A stretch of DNA of 64,000 nt from the NCBI GenBank assembly GCA_900498135.1, contig LR026961.1:4549211-4613210 (forward strand). The letters run 5' to 3'. The position numbers and the translations under genes were made by a program. Shown piece by piece: positions 36,464 through 59,855 of this stretch. This stretch comes from an uncultured Desulfatiglans sp. GTDB lineage: Bacteria > Desulfobacterota > DSM-4660 > Desulfatiglandales > Desulfatiglandaceae. The notes beneath the pieces were generated by a model that made no database searches, had not been told where the DNA came from, and saw nothing but the letters and a program-made list of their open reading frames with translations. Each line of letters starts with the position of its first letter. The stretch's first letter is position 1.

Positions 36464-36691
36464 GTGTCCATCCCGAAAATGATTTCCAGGTAGAACCCAG
36501 TTTCCATCCGGAAATGAGGATTTTTCTTTACACCCTCCGGGTGCTCAGTCCCACCGCTTCGCGGCGGGTCCCGGTTTGGCCAATATCAAGGAAATCAAGC
36601 GTTTGCGCGGAGGCGGCCTGCAGGTCGCCGCACAAGCAAACGTGCAGATTGACGCCGAGATTGGCCAAAAAGACCATTTCCGGATGGAAAC
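36464..36691 (-). repeat. Palindromic repeat copy R3, inside ABC operon
   Basis: About 228 bp, with the two-hairpin insert. Termini GTGTCCATCC and GGATGGAAAC. The central palindrome GCCTGCAGGTC is at about 36616-36632 with one mismatch. It starts three bases after the stop of the binding-protein gene (reading minus strand). Flanks AACGGGCCAGG and AACGGGTCAA are similar and may be remains of target duplication. Confidence 0.85.
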
Positions 36692-45003: not shown

Positions 45004-45176
45004 TTTCCATCCGGAAATGGCCTTTTTGGCCAATCTCGGCGTCAATCGGCACGTTTGCTTGTGCGGCGACCTGCAGGTCGCCTCCGCGCAAACACTTGAT
45101 TCCCTTGATATGGCCAAAAATGCTCATTTCCGGATTGGAAACTGAGTTCTACCGCGAAATCATTTCCGGATGGACA
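45004..45176 (+). repeat. Palindromic repeat copy R4
   Basis: The clearest simple copy, 173 bp without the insert. Left terminus TTTCCATCCGGAAATGG, centre GCGACCTGCAGGTCGC at about 45063-45078, inner terminus CATTTCCGGATTGGAAAC, outer right terminus CATTTCCGGATGGAC. It is flanked by CTATTTAG at 44996-45003 and 45177-45184; part of this may be element ends if the target is TA. Confidence 0.9.
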
Positions 45177-46112: not shown

Positions 46113-46652
46113 TCAGTAGGCGGATCGCATTTGTCCCGTATATTTGTCCACGAGGACCTTGTCCGCCAGGGAGCCGTCTTTGGTTTCGATGTCTACCTCG
46201 TAAGTGTCGTCTTTTTCCGTGATCTGGCCCATTTTGAGGTTGGGATTTCTTGTGTACCTCAGGTAGTCCTCAACTTGCCTCTTAATCTGGTCTTTATCCA
46301 GAGGCTTCTGGGGTTGCTGATACTGAGGCCCATAACCATACTGGGACTGGGGTTGAGGGCCGTAACCATATCCCGGTCCCATCATACCTGGCCCCATTCC
46401 AGGACCCATGCCATACCCTCTTCGCATCATTCCGGGACCCATGCCGTAGCCGCCTCCCATCATTCCGGGACCCATGCCGTAGCCGCCACGGGGGCCGAGA
46501 TATTGGCCGCAGTTGGGGCAGTAGTTACCGCCATAGCCTGGACCATAACCTCCTCCCATCATCGCTGGGCCCATCTGGGCGTTTCCGTCAGACACACAAA
46601 GCGCGAGCCCTGCAAACAAAACAACTGCCAAAACTGCAATTCCCTTTTTCAT
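46113..46652 (-). CDS. Periplasmic Met/Gly-rich protein
   Basis: 179 residues. Signal peptide M-K-K-G-I-A-V-L-A-V to G-N-A-Q. Then Gly-Tyr-Met repeats (G-M-G-P-G-M-M repeated five times) with C-P-N-C-G, and a PepSY-like C-terminal domain (V-E-D-Y-L-R-Y-T-R-N-P-N-L-K-M-G). Met-rich repeats suggest binding of copper(I) or silver; inference only. GAGAGG precedes the start. It sits between the oxidase genes and the copper ATPase. Confidence 0.75.
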   Translation of the reverse strand: MKKGIAVLAVVLFAGLALCVSDGNAQMGPAMMGGGYGPGYGGNYCPNCGQYLGPRGGYGMGPGMMGGGYGMGPGMMRRGYGMGPGMGPGMMGPGYGYGPQPQSQYGYGPQYQQPQKPLDKDQIKRQVEDYLRYTRNPNLKMGQITEKDDTYEVDIETKDGSLADKVLVDKYTGQMRSAY

Positions 46653-46975: not shown

Positions 46976-47420
46976 CTAGGCTTCAAGGTCTTTTTTAACT
47001 TGTCAAATTCCTTTTTTTTATTTCACCTCCGGCATAACGCTTTTTCAATATCTCCGTCCGACTCTCTCTTTCCGGACCTCCGCTGTCTCGGATGTCTTTC
47101 CTCTGGTTGAAGACAAATTCGATAGTATCCATCCGGAAATGATTTTGCGGTAGAACTCAGTTTCCAATCCGGAAATGAGGATTTTTCTCTACACCCTTCG
47201 GGTGCTCAGTCCCACCGCTTCGCGGCGGGTCCCGGTTTGGCTAATATTAAAGAAATCAAGCGCTTGCGCGGAGGCGACCTGCAGGTCGCCGCACAAGCAA
47301 ACGTGCAGATTGACGCCGAGATTGGCCAAAAAGACCATTTCCGGATGGAAAGATAACGACAACTGCGATAATCATTAAGATCAGCCACATGAATATTCCT
47401 CCATTGCCTCTGTATCCCAT
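46976..47420 (-). pseudogene. SHOCT-domain gene split by repeat R5
   Basis: The 5' part (47420-47355, minus) reads M-G-Y-R-G-N-G-G-I-F-M-W-L-I-L-M-I-I-A-V-V-V-I. The 3' part (47124-46976) reads E-F-V-F-N-Q-R-K-D, then R-T-E-I-L-K-K-R-Y-A-G-G-E-I-K. Between them lies R5. Joining them at GATA gives one membrane helix plus SHOCT protein of about 68 residues. A second lesion is an eight-A run near 47012-47019, one base short of keeping frame to F-D-K-L-K-K-D-L-E-A and stop. The gene is dead, by insertion and then frameshift, or in the reverse order. Confidence 0.8.
47125..47351 (-). repeat. Palindromic repeat copy R5, inserted in SHOCT gene
   Basis: 227 bp including the two-hairpin insert (CACCCTTCGGGTG and the CCCACCGC...GCGGCGGG stem). 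Ends TATCCATCCGG and CCGGATGGAAA. Flanked by GATA at 47121-47124 and 47352-47355, so the target duplication is GATA or just TA. Confidence 0.9.
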
Positions 47421-47838: not shown

Positions 47839-49926
47839 TTACTTCGATATTCTCAGAAACCGCGCGTTAATGGCTACGATAACCGTGCTGAGAGACATCA
47901 GCACCGCTCCCATGGCTGGTGAGAGAAGCACACCATAACCATAAAGAGCCCCTGCAGCGAGAGGAATGGCAAAGGCATTGTAGCCGGTTGCCCAAGCCAG
48001 ATTTTGGACCATCTTTCGAAAGGTTGCCCGTGACAGGTCCAGGATCGCCACTGCATCGAGGGGGTTGCTGCGGACCAGGATAATGTCAGCGGTCTGGACA
48101 GCTACGTCGGTCCCTGCCCCGATGGCAATGCCCACATCCGCCTGCGCAAGAGCCGGGGCGTCGTTGACGCCGTCGCCCGTCATGGCGGTGATCAAACCTC
48201 TCGATTGCACCTCCTTGACTTTCTCAGCCTTGTCCTTGGGAAGGACTTCTGCAAAGTATTCGTCCAGTCCGATTTCTTCAGAAACCCATTTAGCAACGGC
48301 CTTGTTGTCGCCTGTAAGCATCATGCACCTGATTCCCATCCCCTTCAATTTGGAGATGGCCTCCTTCGATTCGTCCCTGATGATATCGGCAAGTGCAATG
48401 GCACCCTTCAGTTCGTCATCCACCAACACGAAGACAACGGTCTTGCCTTGTGAGTTGAACTTTTCTATACGTTCGTCATCCGTCGAAATGCTGTTTTCTC
48501 TCAGGTAACCAGGGCTGACAATCTTGATGTTCTTTCCCTCAACCTTGCCCTGGGCTCCTTTCCCAGGGATGGACTTGAAATCCTCCACCTGGGGCTGTTT
48601 TTCAGTCGAAGCGGCAATTCCCTTCGCAATGGGATGTTCAGAATGGCTTTCGATCGAAGCTGCATAGGCAAGCAGTTGCCCCTCACTCAAATCATCTGAA
48701 AACAACAAGGTGTCCGTTACACCAAACTCGCCTTTTGTCAACGTCCCGGTCTTGTCGAAGATGATGGCTTTAATGTTCCTCCCGCGCTCGAAGGATGCAC
48801 GATCCCTGATCAACAACCCGTTCTTGGCGGACAAGGCCGTGGATACCGCCACAACCAGTGGTACGGCAAGGCCCAGGGCGTGCGGGCACGTGATGACCAT
48901 GACGGTGACCGTCCGCTCCAGGGAGAAGGCAAAATCCCTGTTGATGATGACGAGCCACAGAAATAGGGTGAGCACACCGCAGGAGAGGGCGATGATCGTC
49001 AACCATAAAGCTGCCCGGTTCGCAAGGTCCTGGCTCCGCGACTTACTTTTCTGAGCTTCCTCGACGAGGCTGATCATTTGCGAGAGGAACGAATCCTTGC
49101 CGGTTTTCTGAACCTCAGCGGTCAGGGAGCCTTCTCCATTGATCGCGCCACCTATAAGCTTGGTTCCAACGCGCTTTTCGACCGGTTTGGATTCGCCGGT
49201 GAGCATCGCCTCATTGACTGAGCTTTCTCCATCTAATACTTCCCCGTCCACGGGTATCTTTTCGCCCGGTTTGATGAGGACTTTGTCTCCTTCCTTCAGA
49301 TCGGCAATGGGAATGTCTTTCGTACCGCCATCGGGCATGATCTTGTGTGCGTCGGAGGGCATGAGCTTGGCAAGCTCTTCCAGGGCGCGCGATGCCCCCA
49401 TTACCGATTTCATCTCGATCCAGTGACCCAGGAGCATGATATCGATCAGGGTAGCCAGCTCCCAGAAAAAGACCTTTCCGCTCAATCCGAATACAACGAC
49501 GCTGCTGTAGAGGTAGGCCGTGGTAATGGCTATGGCGATGAGGGTCATCATCCCCGGTTGTTTCTTCCCCAATTCATTGAAGAGGCCTTTCAGGAAAGGC
49601 CATCCACCGTAAAAGAAGACTCCTGTTGAAAGTGCCCAGAGGAGATAAACATCACCGGGAAATCTCAGTGCAGTCCGGATACCGAGGAAAGTTTGAATCA
49701 TCGGGGAGAGCAGAAGGATAGGGATCGAGACAGCCAAAGAAATCCAGAAGCGCCGCTTGAAATCGGCTACCATGTGTGCGTGGTGGTCAGCTCCGCCGCC
49801 ATGGGAATGATGTTTCTGGTGTTCAGCGTGGGCCTTACCTTTAGTGTTGTTTTTGTGGGTTTCGCCTTTATCGGGAGCGCCTGATTCAGAACGGTGATGA
49901 CCATTTAAGGCGTCAGAGCTTGGCAT
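47839..49926 (-). CDS. Copper-translocating P-type ATPase, CPH (CopB) type
   Basis: 695 residues. N-terminal His-rich tail ([17 protein letters not shown]) in place of a CXXC metal domain. Phosphorylation site D-K-T-G-T-L-T-K, A-domain L-T-G-E-S-K-P-V, hinge [12 protein letters not shown]. The transport motif is C-P-H (I-T-C-P-H-A-L-G-L), marking the P1B-3 group, which exports Cu(I)/Cu(II). It is the inner-membrane partner of the periplasmic copper proteins encoded downstream. The stop is close to R5 side decay. Confidence 0.93.
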
Positions 49927-55364: not shown

Positions 55365-55540
55365 GTTTCCATCCGGAAATGGTCTTTTTGGCTAATCTCG
55401 GCGTCAATCTGCACGTTTGCTTGTGCGGCGACCTGCAGGTCGCCTCCGCACAAATACTTTATTTCATTGATATTGTCCAAGAATCCTCATTTCCGGATTG
55501 GAAACTGGGTTCTACCGAGAAATCATTTCCGGATGGAAAA
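55365..55540 (+). repeat. Palindromic repeat copy R7
   Basis: 176 bp, no insert. Between the convergent barrel and cytochrome genes. Left end TAGTTTCCATCCGG, centre GCGACCTGCAGGTCGC at about 55427-55442, right end CATTTCCGGATGGAAA. Flanks TAATGTAG / AAATGCAG are similar. Confidence 0.9.
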
Positions 55541-57746: not shown

Positions 57747-57920
57747 TTTTCATCCGGAAATGATTTCCCGGTAGAACCCAGTTTCCAATCCGGAAACGAG
57801 GATTTTTGGCTAATATCAAGGAAATCAATCGTTTGCGCGTTGGCGACCTGCAGGTCGCCGCACAAGCAAACGTGCAGATTGACGCCGAGATTGGCCAAAA
57901 AGACCATTTCCGGATGGAAA
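57747..57920 (-). repeat. Palindromic repeat copy R8a
   Basis: 174 bp, no insert. Termini TTTCATCCGGAAATG and CATTTCCGGATGGAAA, centre GCGACCTGCAGGTCGC at about 57844-57859. Followed directly by a tandem half copy. Confidence 0.9.
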
Positions 57921-58017
57921 TCAAGCGTTTGCGCGGAGGCGACCTGCAGGTCGCCGCACAAGCAAACGTGCAGATTGACGCCGAGATTGGCCAAAAAGAC
58001 CATTTCCGGATGGAAAC
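57921..58017 (-). repeat. Palindromic repeat copy R8b (tandem half copy)
   Basis: 97 bp repeating the right half of R8a, from TCAAGCGTTTGCGCGG to GGATGGAAAC. It begins in the middle of a left arm and lacks the outer end, as expected of a tandem duplication. It ends two bases before the stop of the histidine kinase gene. Confidence 0.85.
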
Positions 58018-59687: not shown

Positions 59688-59855
59688 GCGGAAATAATTT
59701 CGCGGTAGGACTAAGTTTCCAATCCGGAAATGAGGATTCTTGGCCAATATCAAGGAAATCAAGCGTTTGTGCGGAGGCGACCTGTAGGTCGCCGCACAAG
59801 CAAACGTGCAGATTGACGCCGAGATTAGCCAAAAAGACCATTTCCGGATGGAAAC
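59688..59855 (-). repeat. Palindromic repeat copy R9
   Basis: 168 bp, left end worn (GCGGAAATAATTTCG). Central palindrome has one mismatch (GCGACCTGTAGGTCGC). Right end CATTTCCGGATGGAAAC followed by TA. Confidence 0.85.

Follow-up and report, generated by a model that had tools for sequence, protein, structure and literature searches.

The locus raises the question of whether a short repeat lying across a small reading frame was inserted into a gene that had been whole and, if so, by what means. We addressed this in the window, that is, the whole 64,000-nucleotide stretch of chromosome analysed, from an uncultured Desulfatiglans sp. An earlier note on this DNA had proposed that the repeat entered an existing SHOCT gene. 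We observed that the 227-bp repeat breaks a small minus-strand gene, with its start ATG at 47420, after residue 23, and that its limits (47125, the G of GTATCCATCC, and 47351, the last A of GGATGGAAA) are exactly those that the earlier note had given. The reading that we favour, at a probability of roughly 0.9, is that a MITE moved by an ISNCY transposase split the SHOCT gene with a duplication of about 6 bp, and that the junction later lost three bases and two frame shifts arose at A runs. The features are listed in Table 1.

When the flanks were joined at the GATA common to both sides, with zero bases restored, a single frame of 59 residues was obtained, in which ...AVVVI runs on into EFVFNQRKD (MGYRGNGGIFMWLILMIIAVVVI-EFVFNQRKDIRDSGGPERESRTEILKKRYAGGEIKK). 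This one-frame join had been predicted from the letters alone, and it was borne out by tblastn with the joined 59 residues: the alignment ran through the join, ungapped over residues 1-59, in seven homologues (L125, L126, L140, L118, L119, L120 and L116), at 50.8-59.3% identity and E values of 1e-18 to 5e-15. These homologues are from MAGs labelled Desulfotignum, Desulfobacteraceae or Desulfatibacillaceae. Since the alignment is ungapped over residues 1-59, the spacing across the join is conserved too, and the join is not a product of chance. As the GATA fixes the register, the join is also independent of how the target duplication is read.

A scan of named prokaryote genomes gave 133 relatives, of which 80 were kept. 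Four full-length homologues passed the Pfam SHOCT cut-off; the window's own reading, which ends short of the end of the SHOCT domain PF09851, gave no PF09851 match. The two halves were not separate conserved genes in the relatives, which instead carried one uninterrupted gene. Judged from these alignments, a single gene was present before the insertion, and the proposal of an insertion into an existing SHOCT gene stands. The predicted product is a small membrane protein with a SHOCT domain, whose function would have been lost.

The neighbourhood of the gene is also shared. In two homologous loci (L116 and L142), a CopA-type ATPase, 53-63% identical to the ATPase of the window, is followed by the gene after a gap of roughly 100-150 bp, in the same order as in the window, and an ATPase is also found near the gene in other homologous loci. 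The window gene resembles the SHOCT small membrane proteins beside copper P-type ATPases in its 59-residue ungapped homology and its ATPase neighbour, but differs from them in being split by a MITE and in carrying two frame changes. No close copy of the split gene was found in the other 98 genomes surveyed. Its C-terminal half gave only weak matches beyond the host genome among the 99 genomes searched, which makes it probable that only the host lineage acquired or kept the gene. A search for the empty site in the sister genome gave no unique-flank match, and no strain with an empty site at this exact locus was found. The copper region also contains, adjoining the split gene (46113-46652, minus strand), a 179-aa glycine/methionine-rich, secreted-looking protein with MGPGMMGGGYG repeats and one CPNC, for which there was no Pfam or NCBIfam match.

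Table 1. Features of the split gene, the focal MITE copy and the other copies in the window.
Feature	Position	Strand	Basis
5' half of split gene (start codon, membrane segment MGYRGNGGIFMWLILMIIAVVVI)	47352..47420	-	ungapped homology to intact genes
3' half of split gene, SHOCT-type end (EFVFNQRKD...EILKKRYAGGEI...)	46976..47124	-	homologue alignment; frame shifts at two A runs before stop
Copper-type P-type ATPase, directly upstream of split gene, same strand	47839..49926	-	TIGR01511, 635.6 bits
Focal M-class MITE copy, 227 bp (consensus of the family, 228)	47125..47351	+	nhmmer, 274.8 bits, model built from 20 copies in the genome
Left terminal inverted repeat GTATCCATCCGGAAATG	47125..47141	+	sequence reading, arm comparison
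Right terminal inverted repeat (CATTTCCGGATGGAAA on + strand)	47336..47351	-	sequence reading, arm comparison
Left copy of putative 6-bp duplication TCGATA	47119..47124	+	same register as the 6-bp duplications at 19 other copies
GATA, putative rest of right duplication copy after 3-nt junction loss	47352..47355	+	junction comparison
Second M-class MITE copy	36464..36691	+	nhmmer model, 267 bits
S-class MITE copy, without middle module	45004..45176	-	MITE profile search
S-class MITE copy, exact 6-bp duplication TAAATA	55366..55538	-	MITE profile search, duplication analysis
S-class MITE copy, with an additional right module immediately after it	57748..58016	+	MITE profile search
S-class MITE copy	59689..59854	+	MITE profile search

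We further examined the 3' end of the gene. Past ...YAGGEI the homologues continue in a single frame to the stop; the window passes into a second frame (EFDKLKK) and then a third (KKDLEA) before the stop at 46976. The two shifts were located at an 8-A run and a 6-A run. The earlier note had described a one-base loss in an A run, and it was right about a frame change in such a run but not about the count, which is two. These changes may be sequencing errors, in which case the MITE alone breaks the gene. We give this a substantial, though somewhat less than even, chance: both changes lie in homopolymers, where assemblies of long reads typically go wrong, and the genome is a single contig, but long A/T runs were not clearly depleted in this assembly, the length ratios falling as in other MAGs. 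This statistic is not decisive, since run lengths that give no clear homopolymer loss leave both decay and assembly error possible. It is rather unlikely that the gene had died first through the frame changes and that the MITE entered a pseudogene. The position of both A-run changes near the 3' end agrees with such an order, as does the lack of a close copy in the other genomes; however, there is no other break in residues 1-59, which match intact genes at 50-59% identity; this suggests a short decay time, and the order of lesions is not readable from one genome. We infer that the insertion into a whole gene came first. The MITE end also provides an in-frame ATG for the 3' half (MDTIEFVFNQ..., 46995-47132, minus strand), with no obvious ribosome site.

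The focal repeat is made up of a left module, one double-hairpin module of ~52 bp and a right module, and its ends are GTTTCCATCCGGAAAT inverted repeats, the 19-nt terminal arms being 89% complementary. There is no transposase gene inside it and no ORF of more than 78 aa overlaps it; the longest overlapping ORFs are mechanical frames that run on into the flanks. The repeat is a non-autonomous MITE. When an HMM of 20 copies was run over the window and about 90 chromosome stretches, three size classes were seen (S, M and L, of 176, 228 and 276-280 bp) that carry 0, 1 and 2 of the ~52-bp modules, together with solo left modules and direct copy-copy fusions. In the 4.8-Mb chromosome, the right-module 23-mer gave 289 matches at up to 3 mismatches and the terminal 12-mer gave 334, against 0 for each in the reversed control. 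The repeat was matched at dozens of chromosomal places at 87-95% identity, and scores were obtained for about 40 nearly complete copies of the 227-bp form.

The ~52-bp module contains two hairpins, in which the two sides of the loop-closing pairs change together, between C-G and G-C: among 24 copies, pairs 70-76 were changed in 9 and pairs 92-98 in 11, and none was broken. Across genera and families of one order, the best matches of the right module had 75-82% identity. We consider it doubtful that selection maintains the right and double-hairpin modules, as RNA structures or as structures to which proteins bind, with an ISNCY transposase as the means of their spread, which would make the family not purely parasitic. 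Some further arrangements were seen among the copies. Three and four consecutive right-module matches, exactly 142 bp apart, at G000:C1:803200-803506 and 3015781-3016229, form short tandem arrays of the inner part of the element. A solo left module of ~50 bp lies between GCTCGTG copies (L059, 2867-2918) and is perhaps an even smaller mobile form, and at L048 (about 1620-1800, relative) another small inverted-repeat element (GGCTGTCCGGGAAT...ATTCCCGGACAGCC) sits directly beside a copy of the MITE family.

To count target duplications, the element ends were set at GTTTCC...GGAAAC, which left 73 measurable copies. Exact flanking duplications of 6 bp were found at 19 of these (0.39 expected in shuffles) and of 7 bp at 6 (0.10 expected); the other 48 had neither, which indicates that many copies are old or recombined. 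The preferred target is approximately TANNTA, often preceded by C and followed by G. An 8-bp duplication, with ends at TTTCC/GGAAA, was rejected, as exact 8-mers flanked 0 of the 73 copies in the GTTTCC/GGAAAC register, where 6-mers flanked 19. Long open frames were rarer at empty sites than at random points, by what is a crude proxy for genic location. The focal copy has only the four bases GATA in common between its flanks (47121-47124 and 47352-47355), outside the usual register of the family, and its right junction reads GGAAA/GATAACG as against the usual GGAAAC/NNNNNN. Since the family duplicates 6-7 bp, this GATA is best read as what is left of the 6-bp duplication TCGATA after a probable loss of three bases at the right junction. 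A duplication of 'GATA or TA' had been suggested previously; a duplication is upheld, while its length is 6 bp, and sometimes 7, in the family.

The genome gave 20 DDE_Tnp_1 matches. Three of these loci (L203, L206 and L207) belong to a 1691-1696-bp element with ends TTTCCATCCGGAAA and its inverse; TTTCCATCCGGAAA...TTTCCGGATRGAAA surround a 465-aa open frame, with one internal stop in L207. The 455-aa protein scored 438.9 bits against the NF033593 ISNCY transposase of NCBIfam (cut-off 325), its Pfam domains are DUF772 and DDE_Tnp_1, and the L206 element has TAAATA on both flanks. At the other DDE_Tnp_1 loci of the genome, no transposase element was found to be bounded by MITE-type ends. IS1595 had no match in the host genome, which ruled it out as a partner there. 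The MITE consensus and the IS are identical over 14-15 bases at either end, with no significant match between their interiors, so the MITE did not arise by simple internal deletion of this IS. The genome of the dispersed repeat, with its terminal inverted repeats and 6-bp duplications, also holds an IS with the same ends.

The relatives were examined as well. The sister genome (G001) has MITEs, and no IS copy was detected in its draft assembly, which can lose repeats. Related transposases, 61-67% identical, occur in G016, G066 and G070 and adjoin altered ends, GTGYCCATCC. ISNCY copies in relatives end in GTGYCCATCCAKWAAT (L217-L219) and the MITEs of relatives have the left end GTGCCCATCCACAAAT (L034, L037 and L040); the left end GTGCCCATCC was seen in relatives' MITEs, including L040 within G016 itself. 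As altered ends occur on the ISNCY copies and MITEs alike, the ends of the one element vary with those of the other, which is what trans-mobilisation predicts. From these comparisons, the MITE is probably mobilised in trans by the ISNCY transposase. Separately, the same ~150-bp flank (ending ...GTTTCATAACAG) reaches the terminal repeat of a MITE (L003, 1349-1514) and of an ISNCY copy (L203, 260-425), with a further copy at G000:C1:4334103-4334249 (95%), and may represent end-to-end recombination or a hitch-hiking segment.

Together, these observations suggest the following course. The ISNCY-family DDE transposase of the 1.7-kb IS would recognise the MITE through the 15-bp ends that both carry and would insert a copy into the small membrane SHOCT gene beside the copper P-type ATPase. 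A staggered cut would duplicate about 6 bp, TCGATA, and divide the gene after residue 23; the right junction would later lose three bases, and the 3' half would now shift frame at two A runs. It is very improbable that the repeat instead belongs to the structured intergenic repeats, of REP/REPIN or regulatory-RNA type, and spread by some other route, its place in the gene being a rearrangement: its palindromic form, its closing pairs that change on both sides and the absence of any Rfam family match, which makes a new structured repeat possible, are in keeping with this, but the MITE family has 6-7 bp target duplications and shares its ends with a DDE IS, both in the host genome and, as an altered version, in relatives. 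REPINs and REPs are recognised by an inverted REP pair, a RAYT tyrosine transposase and no target duplication, and here duplications of 6-7 bp are present. Duplications of this kind are not known for RAYT-moved REPINs.

The MITE and its partner can be compared with known systems. Correia elements of Neisseria are bacterial MITEs. MITEAba12 of Moraxellaceae is another (PMC6382973). The window family is like these in being short, in having terminal inverted repeats and target duplications but no transposase gene, in reaching hundreds of copies, as in the high-copy cases, and in occasionally interrupting a gene. It is unlike them in its ends, its 6-7 bp duplication, its ISNCY partner and its 0, 1 or 2 inserted double-hairpin modules. 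The partner is placed within the ISNCY insertion sequences at family level, as its transposase passes the NF033593 cut-off and its length is 1.7 kb, whereas the focal element lacks a transposase gene. The duplication length of ISDol1 agrees with the 6-7 bp of the MITE family. An ISDol1-type subgroup of the ISNCY insertion sequences has been named (PMC8147514).

MITEs, their IS partners and the interruption of genes by MITEs are well known (PMC6382973). No publication describing this MITE sequence family was found in the literature searched, which was mostly not subscription journals and is weak evidence in this respect; the family appears to be undescribed. The repeat is now tied to an insertion event with a known before-state and a probable transposase, and this high-copy MITE family with its natural partner could serve for tests of trans-mobilisation and of the gain or loss of modules.
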